From positions 1 to 20,056 of IMG/VR virus record IMGVR_UViG_3300017746_000232: 20,056 bases of DNA; one strand, written 5' to 3'. Shown one piece after another: positions 2,982 through 20,056 of this stretch (position 1 is the stretch's first letter; each line of letters begins with the position of its first letter). The translations under genes were made by a program, and so were the position numbers. The notes beneath the pieces are model-generated. The model made no database searches. It was not told the DNA's origin and worked only from the letters and a program-made list of their open reading frames with translations. The DNA is from a virus.

Positions 2982-3437
2982 ATGATTAGGCAAGCAACCA
3001 TACAAGACTATGATGACATAATGGCAATGATGATTAACTTTGCCAACAGTTCACCATATAATGCATTACAACAACCACAATACAATGACACTTATATAAG
3101 AAGGTTATTAGACAGTTTTAGCAAAGAAGGTTGCATACTGCTAGGCATAAAAGACAACAAACCAGTAAGCATGTTAATAGCACAAATACAAAGCGATGCA
3201 TGGTTACCAGAAATAAAAACAATGAAAGAAGTAGCATGGTGGGTAGAACCAGAACACAGACATAGTTCATTGGGTTATAGATTACTAAAAGAATATGTGA
3301 ACATAGGTAAAACTCTAGTAGACAAAAAAATTATAGAAGGTTTTACACTCACAAACATGGAGATATCGCCAGACTTTGATTTAGAAAAACGAGGTTGGCG
3401 ACCTATAGAAACAAATTATATATATGAGGGTGTGTAG
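2982..3437 (+). CDS. GNAT-family N-acetyltransferase-like protein in the tail-tip cluster
   Basis: A 151-aa protein. It opens with MIRQATIQDYDDIMAMM (beta1-alpha1 of GNAT folds), has GIKDNKPVSMLIAQIQ at residues 55-70 (beta2-beta3), and a core EVAWWVEPEHRHSSLGYRLL at 83-102. That core corresponds to motif A, where acetyl-CoA pyrophosphate is bound by R/QxxGxG/A. Here the loop reads RHSSLG, so the first glycine is a serine. The end, FDLEKRGWRPIETNYI, matches the usual GNAT ending in which a bulky residue follows an RGF/RGW turn. The start lies one base after the previous stop and the next ATG directly follows its stop, so it is part of the tail operon. In GTA and lambda-like clusters this slot normally encodes an NlpC/P60 or Mov34-type tail peptidase. 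Substrate unknown. Confidence 0.75.
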   Translation: MIRQATIQDYDDIMAMMINFANSSPYNALQQPQYNDTYIRRLLDSFSKEGCILLGIKDNKPVSMLIAQIQSDAWLPEIKTMKEVAWWVEPEHRHSSLGYRLLKEYVNIGKTLVDKKIIEGFTLTNMEISPDFDLEKRGWRPIETNYIYEGV

Positions 3438-6041
3438 ATGGCAGTATTTACAGCAATAGCAACAGCAATCGTAGGAGCAATCGGTATAAGTGGTATAGCC
3501 GCTACTATTGTAACTAGTATTATTAGTGCTGGTTTAGCCTTAGGAACTGCAAAAGCATTAGGTGTAATGGAACCACCTAAACAACAAAATACAAAAGATC
3601 CAGGTGTTAAGATACAATTACCCCCAAGCACAGACAACAGAGTGCCAGTATTTTACGGACAAAGTTTTACTGGTGCAATTATTGTTGATGCAGAAATTAA
3701 AAACCAAAACAACACAATGGTATATTGTATGGTTATTGGTGAACAAACAGATAGTGGTACTATAACAATTAATGACATTTACAGAGATGATGCTAAGTTA
3801 AACTTTGCAACTGGTAGTGCAAATGTTATTAGTGCAACAGATCCAAATGCTACAAACACAACTGTTATTGCAAACAAAATACGTTGTAGAGTGTTTGCCG
3901 GTAACGCACAAAGTAGTGTAAATCAAATATTTCCAACAAGCAACAAAGTAGCCGCACAAACATTAATGTCAACTATTACTAGTTCTACTAATTACGAAGG
4001 TTTAGTTTATTCAATTATAGAAATGGATTATGATGCTGAAAATGGATTGCAAGGTTTAGGTGCTATAACATATGACATCAACAACAGTTTAAATGAACCC
4101 AGTAACGTGCTGTTAGACTATCTACGTAACGATAGATATGGTGCTGGGCTTAGTAATGCTGATTTAGATTTAAACAGTTTTAACGACCTCTATGACTATT
4201 CAAATGCCCAAGTAGCCTATACAACAGCCGCTGGTGGTAGTGATACACATGACAGATGGCAAGTAGATGGTATGTTAAGCACATTTGTTCCAGTAAAAAC
4301 AAACATTAATGAAATATGTAGAAGTTGCCAAGCCTATTTTGCCTATGATGCCAAACAAGGTAAGTTTAAAATTATATCAAACAGAGCGGCAACTGTGGCA
4401 GAACAAGCCAATGCATTTGTGTTTAATGATGATAATATTGTTAGCAGTATTGAAATAACAAGCACAGAATTATACAGTTTATATAACAGTATTGATGCTG
4501 AATATCCAAGTGTAACCAAAAAAGACCAAACAAATACCATAATTATATCAACACCAAGTGGTGATAGAAACACCAACGAGCCCGATAACCCTTTGAATAC
4601 TAGATTTAATTTAGTTAACGACCGGGCAAGAGTAGGTAACTTAGCAAACATTGACTTACGTCAAGCAAGAACAAGTACTGTATTGAGCTTTACTGCAGAC
4701 TATAGTGCTATTGTGTGTGATGTAGGTGATGTAGTTAAAGTTACAAACAGTTTATATGGATTTACAAACAAATTATTTAGAGTTATGCGTGTTACAGAAA
4801 TAGAAACATCAGATGCAATGCTGGGTGCAAAAGTTATGTTGTTAGAATACAGTGATGACATTTATACTCACAACGATATACAAAGTGATGGTACCGTAGG
4901 ATTGCCTAATATCAATAATTGGTGGATAAATTGGGGTAACTTAGATATTGCAAATCTTATTGCTAACATAAATGTTGTAGACAGTCCAGCAACAAACACA
5001 GGTAATATTCTACATGCAAACGGGGTAGTGCAAACACCTAATGTAGCACTATCAACTATAAACTTACCAGTTATGGGTGGTGTTGGTAGTAGTTTATTCG
5101 ATGTTGGTGTAACAATACCAGCAAATGTTACTGCAGACACAATTGAAGTAGTAACCACAAATGAAGATATTACTAATAGCACACCACAATTAAATGTTGT
5201 AAGAAGTCATGATGTAGGTGCAGGTGACCACTTTACTCCAGGCGAAACAATTAGAGTTCCAATTATATCAAATGAATTTGGTATAAACACATATTATGAT
5301 ATTGAACGTAGACCAGCAGAAGGCAACATCAAAGCCAAAGTAAGAGTTAAAGATTCAAAAACAGGTGCGGTATCACCAGAAAAAGAAAGTGGTGCCTTTT
5401 TTATTAAACCACAAGGCTCAGTTACACCACAACAATTACGTGATATTGGTGCTGGTGTGCAAATAGAAGATAGACCAGCAAATAATAATAGTGTTGTTAG
5501 TAGTAGTTTAGGGTCAAACGATTTAGGAAGTGCAGGATCAAAAATAACAAACACATTTCCCTATGATTTAAAAGGTATTGATGAAGGTGACTACAGTATA
5601 ATTGCTTCGGGACAAGTTGGTGGACAAATGCCAGCGTCTGGATCATTTAATTATTCTTTTGGACATGGCGGTGATGTTATATATGAACAACGTTATCTGG
5701 CAAACAATGCATTGCAAGGCAATACTTATATACAATCCTTTGGTTATGGAGGCGGCACCGGTGGCCCGGGCGGCGTAGGCTTTCAGATAATAGGACAAAC
5801 TTCTGCACCACCTCCAAGTGTGTCAACAGAAAAAATTAATATATCAGATGCATCTGGCAGAGCAATAGTAACCGCGTTAGGTCAACCTACAACTGGTTTC
5901 ATTTATACTCCTAAAGAAGCAAATGTTATATTGTATGGTAATACAGATATAGATTCGGCAGTCGGTGCAGTAAGATCATTTAGTAATCTAAAATTTGATA
6001 TGATAAGAATTACAAAAGGAGATAGGTTTTTAACTCTTTAA
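3438..6041 (+). CDS. J-like tail tip / host-specificity protein
   Basis: An 867-aa protein. The first 35 residues are Ala/Ile-rich and hydrophobic (AIATAIVGAIGISGIAATIV), like the membrane-active N-terminal segment of lambda gpI or of J-like fusions. Next comes IQLPPSTDNRVPVFYGQSFT, typical of the start of the J/GTA gp15 hub domain. A long hub region follows, with LGAITYDINNSLNEPSNVLL and LRNDRYGAGL (about 210-240). The middle contains NLANIDLRQARTSTVLSFTA and DVGDVVKVTNSLYGF, recognisable J-family landmarks in which VGDVVxVTN precedes a fibronectin-like part. The C-terminal third is Ser/Asn/Gly-rich and includes a short glycine-rich loop (YGGGTGGPGGVGF) before a beta-rich end. The protein should cap the tail tube and contact the receptor. 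The start is supported by GAGGGTG a few bases upstream. Confidence 0.85.
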   Translation: MAVFTAIATAIVGAIGISGIAATIVTSIISAGLALGTAKALGVMEPPKQQNTKDPGVKIQLPPSTDNRVPVFYGQSFTGAIIVDAEIKNQNNTMVYCMVIGEQTDSGTITINDIYRDDAKLNFATGSANVISATDPNATNTTVIANKIRCRVFAGNAQSSVNQIFPTSNKVAAQTLMSTITSSTNYEGLVYSIIEMDYDAENGLQGLGAITYDINNSLNEPSNVLLDYLRNDRYGAGLSNADLDLNSFNDLYDYSNAQVAYTTAAGGSDTHDRWQVDGMLSTFVPVKTNINEICRSCQAYFAYDAKQGKFKIISNRAATVAEQANAFVFNDDNIVSSIEITSTELYSLYNSIDAEYPSVTKKDQTNTIIISTPSGDRNTNEPDNPLNTRFNLVNDRARVGNLANIDLRQARTSTVLSFTADYSAIVCDVGDVVKVTNSLYGFTNKLFRVMRVTEIETSDAMLGAKVMLLEYSDDIYTHNDIQSDGTVGLPNINNWWINWGNLDIANLIANINVVDSPATNTGNILHANGVVQTPNVALSTINLPVMGGVGSSLFDVGVTIPANVTADTIEVVTTNEDITNSTPQLNVVRSHDVGAGDHFTPGETIRVPIISNEFGINTYYDIERRPAEGNIKAKVRVKDSKTGAVSPEKESGAFFIKPQGSVTPQQLRDIGAGVQIEDRPANNNSVVSSSLGSNDLGSAGSKITNTFPYDLKGIDEGDYSIIASGQVGGQMPASGSFNYSFGHGGDVIYEQRYLANNALQGNTYIQSFGYGGGTGGPGGVGFQIIGQTSAPPPSVSTEKINISDASGRAIVTALGQPTTGFIYTPKEANVILYGNTDIDSAVGAVRSFSNLKFDMIRITKGDRFLTL

Positions 6042-8887: not shown

Positions 8888-11800
8888 ATGGGCAACATAG
8901 TAATAACAGAAACATCAGCAAACATTAGTGTAAACAACACTAGTAATGTAGTAACAGTAACAAATACACCAGCAAACATCAGTTTTGCAACAGTTAGTGC
9001 TGTTAGTAATGCCGCAGTTAGAGAAGCAATTAGTGTAACTGACAGTGGTGGAGACGGCAGTTTAACATATTCAAATGCAACTGGTGTAATAAATTATACA
9101 GGACCAAGTGCCAGTGAAGTAAGAGCACATTTATCAAACACATTGCCTATTACATATGATAGTAGCACAGGTGTTATTGGCTTTGACCAAAATTTAAGTA
9201 ATTTAACATTACAACAATATCAAGAAACAATAGTAAGCGGTGGCACAGTTAGTGGTAATATCAGTGCAAACATAGCCGCAGGAACAATACATCAATTTAC
9301 ACTAAGTGGCAATGTTACAAAATTAGATTTAAACAACATACAAAGTGGTGGTAGTGCTACTGTATTTTTAAATCAAGACAGTTTAGGTAACAACATAATA
9401 GACACATCTACATTTCCTTTAGAATGGGCTAATTGGGATTTTGTAAATGATTTTTCTAGTTTAGATGCTACTGCAAATGCATTTAACATTTTAAATGTTT
9501 TATATGATGGAACAAAATATTATGCAAGTTTAGTAGTAGACAGTGAAATATCACCAGATAGTTTATCAGTAAGTGGTAACATATCAGGCGGCAATGTTCA
9601 CAGTAATGCCGCAATGACAACAACAACACTAGTAGCATCAGGGAACATAACTAGTGGTGCAAATGTAGAAGCAGTAACACTAAAAGGCACAGGTGCCTTA
9701 GGATTAGAAGTAACAAATAATGCTACAATAGGTGGCAATTTAAATGTTACCGGAAACATAAATTCAGAAACAGTTGTTGACCTATTTGTAGAAGATAGAA
9801 ACATTACACTACAATTTGGTGCAACAGGAACACCTAGTGCAAACAGTCAAATATTTGTTGACAGAGGTTCAAGTTCAAACACTTATATCAAATGGGATGA
9901 AAGCACTGACAAATGGAAGTTTAGTAATGATGGTAGCACAGAATATGCAATACCAAGTAGCACTAGTGACCTAGCAGAAGGCACAAATTTATATTACACA
10001 AATGCAAGAACAGACGCAAGAATAGGTGCATACACAGGCGCACTAATACCGTCAACAGTTACAGCAACAGGCAATATTGATACTGCTACAGCAATAAACG
10101 TAGCAGAAAGCGGTGGTATTGGTGTAATCAATATACATTCAAATACATCTACAACAAGTAAACCTAATGTTTCTTTATTTGCACCTCTACTTGCAAGAAT
10201 GGCTACACAGCCAACTTCATTTGCAACAAGATTATCACCTAGTGGATTACAAAATAATGGCTTAGGTGATACAAACGTAACTACAAGTTCAAATAACTTT
10301 ACTGTTGACTTAACAGACTTAGACTTTTATGCAGGTAACATAACAGGTAGTACTAACCCAATTCAATTAAGAGTAGAAAACACTAGTGACTTTACTGGTA
10401 ATCCTAGCACAGATTTACGAAGAGGTAGGTTAAGAATAAACAAACAGGGTAATGGCTCTATACAAACTCAATTTACTGATGTTTTAACACATGAAGACTT
10501 ACAATTATTCCAAATTCCTTTTGCAGAACAAATTCAAATTAATAATGGTGCTAGTATTGCCAGTGGTAAAACAATTACAGGTGCAGGTGGTATTAATGTA
10601 TCCGGCAGTATTCAAGGTGCAAACTTAGTAGCAAACTCAAACGTTAATGCACAAATAATGATTGCTTCAGGCAACATTACAGGTGCAAACATAAATGCAA
10701 ACTATTTCCACGGTGATGGTTCAAACTTAACTGGTATTGCAGGTGACATTTCAAGTGTTGTAGCAGGATCAGGTCTTACTGGTGGAGGAGCATCAGGAGA
10801 TGTAACACTTAACGTAGGTGCAGGCACAGGCATAACAGTAAACGCAGATGACATAGCAGTTAATATGAGTGCGTTTAGTACTAGTGACCTTAGTGAAGGC
10901 ACTAACTTATACTACACAGATGCAAGAGCAGATGCTAGAGTAGACGCAGGCTTTACTGCTAAGTCAACTAGTGATTTAAGTGAAGGCACAAATTTATACT
11001 TTACAGCCGCAAGAGCAAGAGGCAACATTAGTGTTGGCACTCCTGCAAGTGCAAGTGGCGGTGGTAGTTTAGCATATGATGGTGGAACAGGTGCATTTAC
11101 ATTTACACCAGCAGATAGTGTTCAAACCGCAATAAATGCCACAAACGTAGCAATAACAGATGATACTTCAACTGATGCACCACATTATGTAACACTAAGT
11201 CCAGCGGCTACTGGTAATCATGGATTAGAAGTAAGTTCAAGTAAATTATCATTTAATCCTTCTACAGGAACTTTACAAACAGATAATATTACAAGTGGTG
11301 CAAGTGCAAACTTAAATTTATTAGGACAACAAAATGGTGTCCATATGAACAAAACTGTTGATAGTATAACAAGTAAACTTGTTGATGTTGATTCAACAGG
11401 TTATTCTATTACACAACCTACATTGCCAGCAACAACTACATTAGGAACAAATGCTCCTCCTGTGCTTCTTACTATGACAACAACAGCAGGTTCACCAATT
11501 GCAAACGTAACACCTATAAATACAGGATTTGGAATTATTGCATTACGAGGTCCATTATACACCACATATATGACAGGAACAAGTTTAGCAAACGTGTTTA
11601 CTGGTGTTGGTGTAAACACAATTGGTGTAGGAACAAATGGTCTAAACAACCCTAGTGCAGGATTATATGGTAGTGATAAAGGTTGGACTATATTTAATGC
11701 CGCATCAGGTAAAAGAGATGATATTTTCCCAATACAGGCATTTTCAACAGGCATAAGTGGTAATGACATAACTTTTAGTGAGAATGCTACAGTAAGTGGA

Positions 11801-14755: not shown

Positions 14756-14772
14756 ATATAATGGAGATTATA

Positions 14773-15264
14773 ATGAAGAAGAACCGAACATCCTTAAACA
14801 CATTCGATTATAACTTGTATGCAGTCAAAGTAGGACCGCATAGACCAAGTTTGGATCGCAATTCACAATATAGAGGTATTCACTTTGTGTTAATGCACAA
14901 AACAACTCCTATGCAATTAGAAGAACTAATCAGTTTTTATTCTGAAGAGTTCGATAATCATGTTCACTACAAAGCAATGGTAGAAATGCTAGATGCTGGA
15001 TATGTAGTTAAATTAGACAGTAAAAGACCTGACAAAGAGTTTTATTTTAAAAATAAATCAAGTACCAGTAGAGAAACAGACAATATACCCACATTGGTAA
15101 TTGATGCTGACAGTCAATTTAGTATTGAAAAGTATTGGGAACTTGAATACAACAGTTGCAATTTATTTAAAAGTTTAATTGCATATACTGACCAAGTAAC
15201 AAAAATTAAAGATGCAGAGCCTACATTGGTAGAGCATTTAAAAGTAATGAACGGTGTAAATTAA
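14773..15264 (+). CDS. Unknown 163-aa protein
   Basis: The start at 14773 is preferred over the ATG at 14761 because GGAG (14763-14766) sits six bases before it. The upstream ATG has no ribosome site and its own codons supply that GGAG. The protein begins MKKNRTSLNTFDYNLYAVKV. It has QYRGIHFVLMHKTTPMQLEE, a charged segment around EMLDAGYVVKLDSKRPDKEF, and a helical C-terminus. It is soluble, with no membrane helix and no recognised catalytic signature. As the first gene after the terminator and next to the polymerase-like gene, it may be a replication- or regulation-related early gene. That is position-based inference only. Confidence 0.65.
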   Translation: MKKNRTSLNTFDYNLYAVKVGPHRPSLDRNSQYRGIHFVLMHKTTPMQLEELISFYSEEFDNHVHYKAMVEMLDAGYVVKLDSKRPDKEFYFKNKSSTSRETDNIPTLVIDADSQFSIEKYWELEYNSCNLFKSLIAYTDQVTKIKDAEPTLVEHLKVMNGVN

Positions 15265-15297
15265 TTTGATATAACCGTCGATGATTTGATATAACCG
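15264..15297 (+). repeat. Direct repeat ATTTGATATAACCG x2, 20-bp period (iteron/operator-like)
   Basis: ATTTGATATAACCG occurs at 15264-15277 and again at 15284-15297, two helical turns apart. Its core reverse complement CGGTTATAT recurs at 14523-14531 inside the 116-bp structured element. Just downstream is a small palindrome CATATA-GTA-TATATG (15298-15312). Same-face spacing ahead of a polymerase-like gene suits a repressor or an initiator protein. Confidence 0.6.
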
Positions 15298-15354: not shown

Positions 15355-16746
15355 ATGGCTAAGAAAGTAATAAACTCGATACCAAGTGTAACTGAAATAG
15401 TTACTGCAATGCAAACAGTATCACCAATAACTGCAAAAAATAACAGAGGCACTAGTTATGAATCAATTGCTAGGAGTTATTTGTTAAGAACAGTTAATCA
15501 ATTAACAAATGCACAACAAGTAGACAATAAAAAGTTAGTTTATGTGCATGACATAGCACAACACATCAATCAACGTTACAATATGGGTAAAAAGTGGTAT
15601 ACATGGCTTAGAGACAATTATCCACTTTACATAATGATTACGCAGGGTAACAATATGAATGGTCGTGCTACACCCAGTGAAGTTAAAAGTTTAGTAAGTG
15701 ATAGAGAACTTATTGAATACAGAATGAATGAGAACTTTGACAGCATATACTCAATACCCACAGAAGATGTTATAGATATCTCTATAGATATGAAAAGTTT
15801 AGCAAACTTTATTATGAGAACAGCAATGCGTTATCAAACAGAAACTGATGGAGTATACAAACACAAATTGAGACGCAACATAGCACATGCTTGTGAAGTA
15901 TTAGATTGTGCAAAAGCAAACGGTGGTGTGTTAAGTTGTGAATACAGTCGCTCACCATATGGCAGAATATACATGCGTGGTGTAAACATACAAAATACTG
16001 TTAGCAGTGAAGTTAGAGAAGCCGCATTGGGTAAATGTTACAAGTATGACATAGCCAGTGCCAGTTATGCATTTAGATTGGGTTATATCAAAGAAAATGC
16101 TCCAGATATAAAAACACCAGCACTTATAGACATAGTAGAAAACAAAGCTCGTAACAGAAAGGTACTAGCAACACAATGTTTGCAGGATACCAACACCACA
16201 TTAGAAGTTAAAATTGGCTTAATCAAAAAAGCCTTAAATATGATTGGATTTGGTGCTAAAACATCAAGCAGTTTTGGTGCAATCAAAGACATCATATGGA
16301 ATGATGCAGACAGAGTTAGATTTGTTAATCATCCACTTATTGTAGAACTCAAAGCAGAACTTGACCAGTTCACTGAACTGTTAAAAGAGGAAATACCCAA
16401 AGCAACAGCAAAACGTTACTTGAATAACAGTACCAGATACAGTCAAAGTAAGTTTGAAAGTTATGTGTATCAACAAATGGAAACAGTTGTTATGCAAACA
16501 GTGATGACACAAACTAAAACAAATGTAATTATGTGGTGTCATGATGCAATATACACAGACAAATGTGAAGGTGTAGGTAACTTAAATTATGTGTTACATC
16601 AACAACCTTATTGGCAATATGCTAACTTTGAAGAAGAAAGCATAACAGCATGGACTAATCCTACGTTTTTAGAACAAGAAGTGCAACACAAAGCATTTAT
16701 AAAAGCAGAAGAACAACGTGCAGAACAGGTACTTGTTGCTGAATAA
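15355..16746 (+). CDS. Miniature divergent family-A-type (Pol I / T7 RNAP superfamily) polymerase, putative
   Basis: A 463-aa protein with AGGA(A) about eight bases before the ATG. Motifs occur in the order and relative places of the family-A palm/fingers. First is YGRIYMRGVNIQN (202-214), like TGRLSSxxPNLQN of DNA polymerase I or RGRxYxxxxNPQG of T7-type RNA polymerases. Motif A is KYDIASASYAFRLGYI (230-245), with D232 as candidate catalytic Asp. Motif B/O-helix is KKALNMIGFGAKTSS (291-305), like KxxxxxxxYG. Motif C is VIMWCHDAIYTDK (391-403), with H396-D397. The usual motif-A Glu steric gate (DYSQIE) is Ser237 here, and the O-helix Tyr is Phe299, so DNA versus RNA synthesis cannot be decided. 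No 3'-5' exonuclease domain is present and the length is far below typical Pol I. The N-terminal 190 residues are unassigned. The polymerase reading comes from motifs alone. Confidence 0.6.
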   Translation: MAKKVINSIPSVTEIVTAMQTVSPITAKNNRGTSYESIARSYLLRTVNQLTNAQQVDNKKLVYVHDIAQHINQRYNMGKKWYTWLRDNYPLYIMITQGNNMNGRATPSEVKSLVSDRELIEYRMNENFDSIYSIPTEDVIDISIDMKSLANFIMRTAMRYQTETDGVYKHKLRRNIAHACEVLDCAKANGGVLSCEYSRSPYGRIYMRGVNIQNTVSSEVREAALGKCYKYDIASASYAFRLGYIKENAPDIKTPALIDIVENKARNRKVLATQCLQDTNTTLEVKIGLIKKALNMIGFGAKTSSSFGAIKDIIWNDADRVRFVNHPLIVELKAELDQFTELLKEEIPKATAKRYLNNSTRYSQSKFESYVYQQMETVVMQTVMTQTKTNVIMWCHDAIYTDKCEGVGNLNYVLHQQPYWQYANFEEESITAWTNPTFLEQEVQHKAFIKAEEQRAEQVLVAE

Positions 16747-16927: not shown

Positions 16928-16936
16928 TGTTATAAT
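16928..16936 (+). promoter_or_regulatory. Candidate extended -10 (TGTTATAAT) preceded by TAAATAC
   Basis: TAAATACTGTTATAATG at 16921-16937 carries an exact extended -10 and overlaps the ATG of the next gene. A similar TAAATACTGTATTATAA stretch occurs at 8030-8046. There is no -35. Because the -10 overlaps the annotated ATG, a promoter here would serve the internal start at 17007 rather than 16935. Confidence 0.3.
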
Positions 16937-17288
16937 GATTGTATCAGACCTAGAAACACACTTAGAATATGCTGTAAAACTGTTTGACAACAGTAGAGGT
17001 GACATGATGGGCACAATACCGCCTAACATGAATGACTACTACAAATACAGCAGTAATGGTAGAAGACAAATACCTTATCACTTGCATTATGACATACAAC
17101 GCATAGCAAGTGAATATAAACGCCGAGGTTATATCTCAAAAAGTGATGAAGCATACTTAAAGAAAGTGTATACACAAACTGATATTTGGTTGTGTAGTCA
17201 TGTGTATGTATTGGGTAAATGGTGGGCATACAGCAAGAAAAAGCCTAAAACACATAATATATTAACCAAAAGAAGTTATCGAAGATAA
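16935..17288 (+). CDS. Unknown basic protein, 117 aa (or 93 aa from an internal start)
   Basis: The frame from 16935 begins MIVSDLETHLEYAVKLFDNS. It continues with IPPNMNDYYKYSSNGRRQIP, a helical IQRIASEYKRRGYISKSDEA part, an aromatic WLCSHVYVLGKWWAYSKKKP segment and a very basic end. The start is uncertain. GAGGT (16996-17000) sits six bases before an in-frame ATG at 17007, a better ribosome site than anything before 16935. The net positive charge and YKRRG/KKKPK stretches would suit nucleic-acid contact, but no known fold is evident. It lies between the polymerase-like gene and the small terminase. Confidence 0.6.
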   Translation: MIVSDLETHLEYAVKLFDNSRGDMMGTIPPNMNDYYKYSSNGRRQIPYHLHYDIQRIASEYKRRGYISKSDEAYLKKVYTQTDIWLCSHVYVLGKWWAYSKKKPKTHNILTKRSYRR

Positions 17289-17351
17289 ATAACATTGCAA
17301 TTACAGTATCAGGTAACACTGATAGTGGACAACATTACAGGAATAGCATAT

Positions 17352-17759
17352 ATGACTGGGCAATCAGAAAAAACAGCCAAAACTACCTATCAAGTCAAAA
17401 ACATCAAAATGGGTGAAAAGACCGTTGTAGGCAGAGTTGTGGGCCGTAATAAAACTGTTATACCAGAAGATGAATTCTATAAATTAGCATGTCTACATTG
17501 TAGTTGGAAAGATTTGAGTGACTTTTATAGTGTGCCAGAAGGTACTCTACGCGATAACTTTCGCGATTTATATATAAAAGGAACACAAACTACGAAGCAG
17601 AAACTACGTCAAAAGATGTTTGAAACTGCTATGAACGGAGATAGGGTCATGATGATATGGCTCAGTAAACAGTGGTTAAGTATGAGTGACAATGGCATAC
17701 AAGGTGGAGACGATGATAGTATGCTACCATGGACCACAAAGGAACAAGATGAAGAATAA
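17352..17759 (+). CDS. terS: Terminase small subunit-like protein
   Basis: Read from ATG 17352 (AGGA ten bases upstream) as 135 aa. The frame is open to a TTG at 17295, which lacks a ribosome site, and a further ATG lies at 17409. Residues 46-73 (ACLHCSWKDLSDFYSVPEGT then LRDNFRDL) form a helix-turn-helix typical of small terminases that bind packaging-site DNA. Residues 82-113 (KQKLRQKMFETAMNGDRVMM then IWLSKQWLSMSD) match the characteristic LRxxQxxxAxxGNxxMxIWLxKQxLxxxD oligomerisation motif of many phage TerS proteins. The acidic C-terminus (GGDDDSMLPW...EQDEE) would contact the large subunit. TerL follows about 1.7 kb downstream instead of directly, separated by the membrane-protein and HNH genes. 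Confidence 0.75.
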   Translation: MTGQSEKTAKTTYQVKNIKMGEKTVVGRVVGRNKTVIPEDEFYKLACLHCSWKDLSDFYSVPEGTLRDNFRDLYIKGTQTTKQKLRQKMFETAMNGDRVMMIWLSKQWLSMSDNGIQGGDDDSMLPWTTKEQDEE

Positions 17760-18098: not shown

Positions 18099-18689
18099 AT
18101 GGCTGAATCAAAAATAAAGAAGAGTGGTCCACCAGGCGAACCACATCATGTGTGTAATATAGAACCACATTATATTCAACGATTTCATGACAGAATAAAA
18201 ATAATGCCAAACGGTTGTCACATGTTTCAAGGCAACACTCAAAACACTGGATACATTAATTGGTGGTATAAGTATGATGACCATGATGGTAGACGTTTGC
18301 GTTACATCACAGCACATAGATTTAGTGCATTAATAAGTGGCAAATTTCCAGAACAAGACGTAAATGATTATTGTGTGTTACATGATTGTGACCAACACTA
18401 TGAAAACAATGACATAACTTATAGACAATGTGTAAATCCAGACCATTTAAAAATAGGTACTGTTAGAGATAACATACTGGACTGCATGGCAAAAGGTAGA
18501 TATGTTAAGCCACCCAGAATGAGAGGCGAAGACAACTACAATGCTACACTTACTGAAAAACAAGTTATATGGGCAATAGAACAACACTACAAAATAACAC
18601 AAAAGAAGTTGGGTGAAATATTGAATGTAAGCACCAGCACAATAGAACGCATACATCAAAATGAAACGTGGAAACATTTACCAAGATGA
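18099..18689 (+). CDS. HNH endonuclease-like protein with C-terminal helix-turn-helix
   Basis: A 196-aa protein. The nuclease core at residues 90-120 has DYCVLHDCD...QCVNPDHLKIGT: H95 and H116 with N113 correspond to the H-N-H triad. The cysteines C97 and C111 are likely zinc ligands, spaced farther apart than usual by an insertion (QHYENNDITYR). After the core, DNILDCMAKGR leads to RGEDNYNATLTEKQVIWAI. The C-terminal part (about 150-193) is a helix-turn-helix (KKLGEILNVSTSTIERI) ending in TWKHL, common in phage-borne HNH homing-type proteins. It lies between the small and large terminase genes, where HNH proteins are often found and sometimes assist DNA packaging. The upstream gene ends one base earlier. 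Confidence 0.8.
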   Translation: MAESKIKKSGPPGEPHHVCNIEPHYIQRFHDRIKIMPNGCHMFQGNTQNTGYINWWYKYDDHDGRRLRYITAHRFSALISGKFPEQDVNDYCVLHDCDQHYENNDITYRQCVNPDHLKIGTVRDNILDCMAKGRYVKPPRMRGEDNYNATLTEKQVIWAIEQHYKITQKKLGEILNVSTSTIERIHQNETWKHLPR

Positions 18690-18919: not shown

Positions 18920-19426
18920 ATGACTTATTATAAAAGATTAAAAAAACCAATAACACAAAAAGATGTAGATAGATTTTGGACTCACGTTGATATAGGAAAG
19001 CCTAATGAATGTTGGGAATGGAAACTGGCAATAACCAAATATGGATATGGATTGTTTGCCGCTGGTAACACATTGCATAGACCAGCACGTTTTGCCTTTA
19101 TAAATGCTAAAGGATTAAACACCAATCCTATTTCAACAGAATATAAAGTAACAGTAGCATGTGGTAATAAAAAGTGTTGTAATCCAAAACATTTAAAACG
19201 TAACAATCAACAAGACGTATGGGATAAAATTAGAAAAGATGGCAATATAACTGTGGGCTCAAAACACAAAATGAGTAAGTTCAAAGAAGCAGATATAATT
19301 GATATCAGAAATAGATACAAACCACAAAGTGCTACAGATGGATATAAACCAATTGGCGATGACTATGGTGTTACACCAGGATGTATCAGAGATATTATAA
19401 TACGCAAAACTTGGCAACATGTATAA
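18920..19426 (+). CDS. Second HNH-like protein, first catalytic histidine apparently lost
   Basis: A 168-aa protein. The N-terminus has DRFWTHVDIGKPNECWEWKL and YGYGLF...RPARFAF, the usual front part of phage HNH_3-type proteins. The core reads VTVACGNKKCCNPKHL (77-92): the zinc-type cysteines, N88 and H91 are kept, but the expected His two residues before C81 is Val79. The C-terminal region (FKEADIIDIRNRYKPQ...DDYGVTPGCIRDIIIRKTWQHV) resembles the helix-turn-helix of the HNH gene upstream, so the two are probably paralogues. Without the first His, cleavage is doubtful, and it may act as a DNA-binding factor. Its stop overlaps the large-terminase start (TAATG). Confidence 0.7.
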   Translation: MTYYKRLKKPITQKDVDRFWTHVDIGKPNECWEWKLAITKYGYGLFAAGNTLHRPARFAFINAKGLNTNPISTEYKVTVACGNKKCCNPKHLKRNNQQDVWDKIRKDGNITVGSKHKMSKFKEADIIDIRNRYKPQSATDGYKPIGDDYGVTPGCIRDIIIRKTWQHV

Positions 19427-20056
19427 TGAAACTGAGTAAACCTCAACAAGTAATCAGTAATGATGGTACCAGATTTAGAATAGTAGTTGCCGGTAGACGT
19501 TTTGGTAAAAGTATGTTAGCCATTAATGAAATAGCCAAACATAGTGTAAAACCAAAGCAAAGAGTGTTGGCATTATACAGCACATATCGACAAGCAAAAA
19601 CGGTGATTTGGGATGAACTTCTAGATAGACTGTATTCTAAAAACTGGATTAAAAACGTAAACAAATCAGACTTAACTATTACATTGAAGAATGATAGCAA
19701 AATATTCATTCGATCTGCAGACTCTCCTCAGAGCTTACGTGGATCACGCTTCGACTATATTGTTATGGATGAGTGTGCTGACCTACACCCTGAAGTATGG
19801 AGCACTATATGTAGACCTATGTTAGCAGATACAAAAGGTGGAGCATTGTTCATAGGCACCCCAAAGGGGAAGGGCAACTGGTATTACGATTTATATGTTA
19901 GAGCAGGTGCTCAACAAGAATGGAATACGCACACATATAGAACAATAGATGGCGGTTGGATTACAGAAGAAGAAATAGAAAGTGCCAAAAGAGATTTAGA
20001 TTCACGTGAATTTGCCCAAGAGTTCTTAGCAGAGTTTCAAGACTATAGTGGCATCA
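19426..20056 (+). CDS. terL: Terminase large subunit, N-terminal part (3' end outside the window)
   Basis: The first 210 residues of the packaging motor are present and the frame is open at the right edge. The ATPase landmarks are clear: an N-terminal KPQQ/adenine-motif region, Walker A VAGRRFGKS (21-29), Walker B YIVMDECA with the D115-E116 pair, and coupling motif III LFIGTPKGKG (141-150). FAQEFLAEFQDYSG at 196-209 is the usual transition from ATPase to nuclease domain. The nuclease itself lies outside. The ATG shares a base with the upstream HNH-like stop. The enzyme moves DNA into the prohead with TerS, and the HNH proteins nearby may assist. Head genes are expected next. Confidence 0.93.
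   Translation, partial: MKLSKPQQVISNDGTRFRIVVAGRRFGKSMLAINEIAKHSVKPKQRVLALYSTYRQAKTVIWDELLDRLYSKNWIKNVNKSDLTITLKNDSKIFIRSADSPQSLRGSRFDYIVMDECADLHPEVWSTICRPMLADTKGGALFIGTPKGKGNWYYDLYVRAGAQQEWNTHTYRTIDGGWITEEEIESAKRDLDSREFAQEFLAEFQDYSGI

Follow-up and report, generated by a model that had tools for sequence, protein, structure and literature searches.

A TV-Pol-like, exonuclease-less family-A polymerase gene, putatively encoding a primase-polymerase, in a fragment of a tailed phage or prophage

The virus fragment IMGVR_UViG_3300017746_000232 comprises 20,056 bases, all of which were analysed here (hereafter 'the window'), and its gene order runs from a tape measure gene through tail genes to a 463-aa polymerase ORF, two HNH endonuclease genes and the start of a large terminase gene. 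This content of tape measure, tail, HNH and terminase genes identifies the fragment as a tailed phage or prophage. The polymerase gene (15355–16746; like the genes of the next sentence and the motifs and direct repeats below, on the plus strand) is placed between the late genes and the terminase, outside any replication block. Upstream of it lies a 167-aa ORF of unnamed function (14761–15264), while downstream are a 154-aa ORF (17295–17759), the putative small terminase subunit by its position, the two HNH endonuclease genes (18099–18689, phrog_1872, E 5e-16; 18920–19426, phrog_3593, E 9e-16) and the large terminase subunit gene, truncated by the window end (19426–20056; PF03237, E 1e-12; phrog_2, E 1e-30). 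Searches of Pfam and PHROG gave no match below 0.01 for the 154-aa ORF, and no family match for the 167-aa and 117-aa (16935–17288) ORFs that adjoin the polymerase gene; the 167-aa product is a possible candidate for a polymerase partner. The 20-kb window yielded no candidate for a helicase or an ssDNA-binding partner, nor was an integrase, resolvase or D5-type helicase found there. An acetyltransferase-like gene sits amid the tail genes (2982–3434; phrog_1249, E 2e-14).

In the 90-bp gap preceding the polymerase gene, TTTGATATAACCG occurs twice in direct orientation at a 20-bp interval (15265–15277 and 15285–15297, by sequence scan). Repeats directly upstream of the gene had been noted in a preliminary description of this DNA, and they are real, with a repeat unit slightly longer than first reported. 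An inverted copy with one mismatch lies within the polymerase gene itself (16080–16092), and three further minus-strand copies with two mismatches fall among the tail genes (1457–1469, 5260–5272 and 9880–9892). Altogether, six matches with two or fewer mismatches were observed against 0.48 expected, and none of 100 shuffles reached six. The repeats are possible candidates for an operator, part of a promoter or a binding site.

The polymerase ORF starts with ATG just 3' of a ribosome-site-like AGGAAG, and its GC content at the three codon positions (0.43/0.35/0.25) is coding-like. We annotate it as the gene of a TV-Pol-like, exonuclease-less family-A polymerase, on the basis of the ORF, a 21-member family and the Pol A fold of a relative. 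The motifs on which the preliminary description rested (GR204-Y, N-I-Q213-N, YD232IASAS, KK292ALNMIGF299G300A and CH396D397AIY) are all present, and their Pol I order and plausible spacing are borne out by comparison with E. coli Pol I. The GR204-x-Y .. Q213 hairpin motif (15961–15993), corresponding to Pol I R668..Q677 by spacing and HHalign register, is followed by motif A (16048–16065), in which D232 is the predicted metal ligand and S237 occupies the steric-gate position of E710; by an O-helix-like fingers motif, K291..N295..F299-G300-A301 (16225–16257; Pol I K758..F762..Y766-G767); by a Q373-x-x-E376 motif (16471–16482) that aligns to PMQG in the Q849 region of Pol I; and by motif C, H396-D397-A398 (16540–16548; HDE in Pol I, HDS in single-subunit RNA polymerases). 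In the window protein the R-Q distance of 9 and the K-(F/Y) distance of 8 equal those of R668/Q677 and K758/Y766 in E. coli Pol I, the latter spacing holding in all family members, whereas the R-D, D-K and K-H distances are 28, 59 and 105 as against 37, 53 and 123 in Pol I. The replacements of the motif-A Glu by Ser (S237) and of the O-helix Tyr by Phe (F299) were both seen as described, and the 463 residues gave no match to a nuclease family in Pfam or PHROG, in agreement with the reported lack of an exonuclease domain.

Direct searches with the window protein returned little. Neither Pfam nor PDB sequences gave a match, nor did PHROGs, where the best E was 0.08; at E 1 there was nothing for either Pfam DNA_pol_A (PF00476) or the single-subunit RNA polymerase family RNA_pol (PF00940). 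Weak matches to DREV in the window protein and to Clp_N in its homologue from Polaromonas plasmid pH8NP1 fell below cut-off and were judged to be chance, as were a Cmr6 identity proposed by PADLOC for the window protein (E 3e-4, 34 residues) and the three matches to a GR-Y..Q..YD pattern. By tblastn there was one significant phage relative, in Desulfovibrio phage 7757 (E 1e-3), and a weak plasmid relative in pH8NP1 (E 0.06). This last protein (L003:6095-7600) is a family member that carries the name 'Clp protease N-terminal domain-containing protein' owing to the sub-threshold Clp_N match; used as a query, it picked up a second Polaromonas plasmid (E 7e-58), Microcystis phages including Ma-LMM01 (E 1e-4 to 6e-5), Vibrio phage GR11A (E 2e-3) and, at E 0.5 only, an E. 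coli plasmid ORF. A profile of the early relatives was positive in 10 of 401 genomes from the family of a Rhodoferax bin, and these finds include the closest relatives of the window protein, L030, L031 and L033, which have HDA[I/V], YQ(Q/H)xE and FGA[K/R] in common with it; L030 and L031 also share its C-terminal HKA stretch. Pattern scans of IMG/VR added L037, L039, L043, L050 and L082, while patterns based on the window or on clade 1 yielded no close relatives in IMG/VR, and a clade-1 search of 369 genomes of the class of G082 gave only a match already known. In all, tblastn and profile searches recovered 20 relatives from phages, plasmids, prophages and integrated elements, their annotation mostly hypothetical or absent.

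In an alignment of the window protein with these 20 relatives, in which the region between D232 and K291 is aligned uncertainly, R204, D232, K291, G300, A301, H396 and D397 are identical in 21 of 21 members, and Q213 (19 of 21), Q373 (18 of 21) and E376 (20 of 21) are nearly invariant. Conservation of D232, K291 and H396-D397 among homologues had been put forward as a check on the polymerase assignment, and each of these positions is invariant. The residue after the HD of motif C is A, G or C, never E. Since identical residues are invariant across 21 homologues, the motif pattern exceeds chance; as aligned, only the Arg, the Lys, the Gly-Ala, the two predicted metal-binding Asp and their His persist across the family. 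That the members form one group is indicated by a profile of the window clade, built from four sequences, which finds members of the other clade that had no part in its construction (L002, E 3.5e-19; L029, 1e-10; L037, 3.5e-8), and by HHalign of the two clades' separately built profiles (99.2% probability, E 2e-19; here and below such pairwise E-values refer to a single comparison and were judged against controls). In the tree the window protein groups with L030, L031 and L033 (99/98) and then with L002 (87/87); the deeper order of the window clade, Ma-LMM01, Pol A and divPolA2, where long branches meet, is not separated.

Several comparisons link this family to Pol A. In HHalign the family and Pol A aligned at a score of 36.6 across 192 columns, and every motif (GR, Q, motif A, K..YG, QG and HD) fell into register; the accepted pairing of Pol A with single-subunit RNA polymerases scored 28.5, whereas Pol B (15.5) and reverse transcriptase (15.4) were rejected as parent families. 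Among PDB sequences, the family profile matched human DNA polymerase nu best (E 0.07), again with motifs in register. A single-sequence AlphaFold model of the window protein (pLDDT 35) was discarded as unusable, so we infer its fold from homology, using a model of L039 (mean pLDDT 75.6, core near 90) that was built from eight sequences, the window protein among them, and that represents a protein ~19% identical to it. In the model R234, in the place of the hairpin Arg R204, sits between strands 222–229 and 235–238, and helices 163–181 and 196–215 come before this hairpin. The best Foldseek match to the model was Klenow (E 1.7e-7), and VIA-align gave Z 18.3 (289 residues) for Pol theta and Z 17.4 for Klenow; among viral models the matches were, for example, to a Qinghai Lake virophage 'helicase/primase/polymerase' and to the DNA replication protein of Zamilon. 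The structural comparison with Pol I and T7 RNA polymerase suggested at the outset has an answer in this relative, whose confident model has the Pol A palm and fingers fold, and from homology and modelling we regard it as near certain that the window protein has a real exonuclease-less family-A-type polymerase fold.

The same data bear on whether the product might instead be a small single-subunit RNA polymerase, with the GATATAACCG repeats among the promoters from which it would transcribe the phage's genes. Such an enzyme could account for the Ser, not Glu, five residues after the motif-A Asp, for the HD-A of motif C (HD-S in T7 RNA polymerase) and for the repeats upstream of the gene. Every one of the 19 Foldseek matches at E ≤0.001 is nevertheless a family-A DNA polymerase (1e-7 to 1e-3), and T7 RNA polymerase comes next, well behind, at 7e-3; the HHalign match to the single-subunit RNA polymerase profile, itself made of five sequences, is short and weak; PF00940 is not matched; and the ~190 residues before the core are too few for a T7-type promoter-binding domain and specificity loop. 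We consider this explanation improbable. Among the three activities originally offered for this protein, the evidence favours DNA synthesis or primer making over transcription by a single-subunit RNA polymerase, whose structures trail those of DNA polymerases by a wide margin and whose promoter-binding parts could not be accommodated in a protein of this length.

In Pol I, two palm Asp bind metal ions and a fingers Lys contacts the triphosphate. By homology, D232 and D397 would hold the two catalytic metal ions, K291 would bind the incoming triphosphate and F299 would stack at the nucleotide site, both from the fingers helix, and R204 and Q213 would contact the template-primer. An inactive or re-purposed polymerase homologue, such as a DNA-binding regulator or decoy, would be in keeping with the strong sequence drift and with the loss of the Pol I side chains E710, F762, R754 and E883; yet enormous divergence has left the template Arg, the O-helix Lys and both metal Asp unchanged in all members, which indicates selection for catalysis and makes this explanation very improbable.

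Pol I discriminates against ribonucleotides through E710 and F762, both of which are retained by CCPol, which uses dNTPs only (PMC7581432). In the window protein these positions are occupied by S237 and N295, and across the 21 members the first is S, V, A, H, N, Q or F, never Glu, and the second N, T, L, I, H, Y or S, never Phe. Mutants of Pol I and T7 RNA polymerase predict weaker sugar selection once such residues are lost. Another potential gate is the His of the plasmid clade. On sequence, the branch is possibly ribonucleotide-tolerant, with a relaxed choice between dNTPs and NTPs following the loss of E710/F762-type residues. A further step would be a family-A branch whose new strands begin with ribonucleotides or with nucleotides of both types, as an RNA or mixed primase on a Pol I fold, a suggestion prompted by the absence of the two ribose discriminators from every family member. 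Such an enzyme would differ from the DnaG and AEP primases as well as from CCPol, with its exclusive use of dNTPs, and we put it forward as a tentative and rather doubtful possibility. If active without the Glu and Phe gates, these proteins would be natural material for studying how family-A enzymes switch between making DNA and making RNA, and could supply small polymerases capable of priming.

The relatives occur in a mobile-element context of integrases, resolvases and plasmid RepA/ParA; integrases or resolvases lie near L028, L030, L031, L033, L034, L037 and L050. Type I restriction-modification genes adjoin L027, L028 and L029, and a DrmD-like helicase lies by L033, as at defence or integration hot spots. 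Near the polymerase in clade-1 elements is a small protein of 145–150 aa (L031:6420-6857 and L033:6549-7001, 39% identical), which in L031 has no Pfam match and which is a possible conserved partner. One prophage-like contig (L082:1-10864) carries a family member and a ParA-like gene amid packaging and head genes, a plasmid-phage mosaic. In Vibrio phage GR11A (L008:3951-6720) a ribonuclease HI gene directly follows the family member, an adjacency that would fit RNA primer removal.

We favour, as the probable explanation, that the window gene encodes a stand-alone, nuclease-free phage replication primase-polymerase of the TV-Pol type, which would prime the phage genome and copy it over short ranges, as for its relative CCPol. 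Its activity, its priming and its service in phage replication are predicted here by analogy, with CCPol-MP as the precedent for priming (PMC7581432). Several points tell against it: the gene's location outside a replication block, the lack of any helicase or ssDNA-binding candidate in the window, the low confidence of the window protein's own model, the replacement of the RxxxK Arg typical of TV-Pols by I287, the strict dNTP use of CCPol, and the want of one common conserved neighbour among the relatives that would fix the function. The main competitor is a role in repair or damage tolerance, as an accessory DNA polymerase that extends existing 3' ends rather than priming, which is how the authors describing divPolA2 read their own enzyme (PMC11348598). 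The divPolA2 phages also encode a main DNA polymerase (PMC11348598), several relatives here reside in large phages not necessarily dependent on the polymerase, and Pol theta and Pol nu are among the best structural matches; other relatives, however, are carried by small plasmids and integrated elements that need priming, not repair, and the sole studied TV-Pol is a primase. We judge the repair role unlikely, if well short of negligible. The family illustrates that few parts of the Pol I active site have to stay constant in its phage, plasmid and integrated-element members, which are recognised by no Pfam or named PHROG family, and it gives a name to some 20 'hypothetical proteins', including Ma-LMM01 gp030 and the Polaromonas plasmid ORFs.

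Among known systems, the TV-Pols are the closest in kind: minimal Pol A enzymes of 400–600 residues, carried by mobile elements, predicted to be primase-polymerases and including one from Microcystis phage Ma-LMM01 (Iyer, Abhiman and Aravind, 2008; PMC2579912). Their marks are a pre-palm beta-hairpin with an absolutely conserved Arg, two active-site Asp in the palm, RxxxK and a conserved Asp in the fingers, and a thumb of two antiparallel helices preceding the hairpin; their context is a D5-type helicase, or the integrase or resolvase of a mobile element (PMC2579912). The window protein resembles them in size, minimal nuclease-free Pol A core, hairpin Arg (R204, 21 of 21), palm Asp pair (D232/D397, 21 of 21) and fingers Lys, and its relatives likewise reside in mobile elements with an integrase or resolvase, near restriction-modification islands. 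It differs in the HD-A of its motif C, in that no D5-type helicase is seen nearby, and in the Arg of RxxxK, which is replaced by I287 while the Lys (K291) is kept in 21 of 21. That Arg is present in just two of the 21 members and is missing also from Ma-LMM01 gp030; with RxxxK thus only half present, we call the protein TV-Pol-like. The Ma-LMM01 record contains exactly one family gene, gp030, beside two transposase genes, which fits the integrated-element description given by the TV-Pol authors, and its link to the window runs via intermediate relatives. By sequence, then, we assign the predicted enzyme to the TV-Pol group, related to phage divPolA2 and not a new class; the proposal of a 'new minimal DNA polymerase' overstated its novelty, this kind having already been described as TV-Pol (PMC2579912), with divPolA2 and CCPol as relatives.

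CCPol, the dNTP-only primase-polymerase of SCCmec and the sole TV-Pol to have been studied (PMC7581432, PMC10061031), is likewise a mobile-element family-A polymerase without an exonuclease and is the model for priming. It is near enough to Pol I to be annotated as PolA and retains the E710/F762 equivalents, in contrast to S237/N295 in the window protein, and it has OB-fold and helicase partners (PMC7581432, PMC10061031), whereas none was identified in the window. The phage divPolA2 proteins (e.g. AUR84708, L012:25469-26761) gave the closest tested profile to the family (HHalign 89.6%, E 1.9e-6, 186 columns) and share a length of ~430–460 aa, an exonuclease-less palm and a similar GR-Y..Q and motif A; they differ in having an F-D-E motif C and in forming their own clade of barbavirus and Vibrio phage sequences in the tree (100/100), and a family profile search of MG592441 for divPolA2 gave no match at E 1e-3. 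Pol I/Klenow, Pol theta and Pol nu (PF00476), finally, are alike in fold (Z 17–18) and in motif order and spacing, while the window protein departs from Pol I at the E710, F762, R754, Y766 and E883 positions, in its want of an exonuclease and of a sequence-family match.
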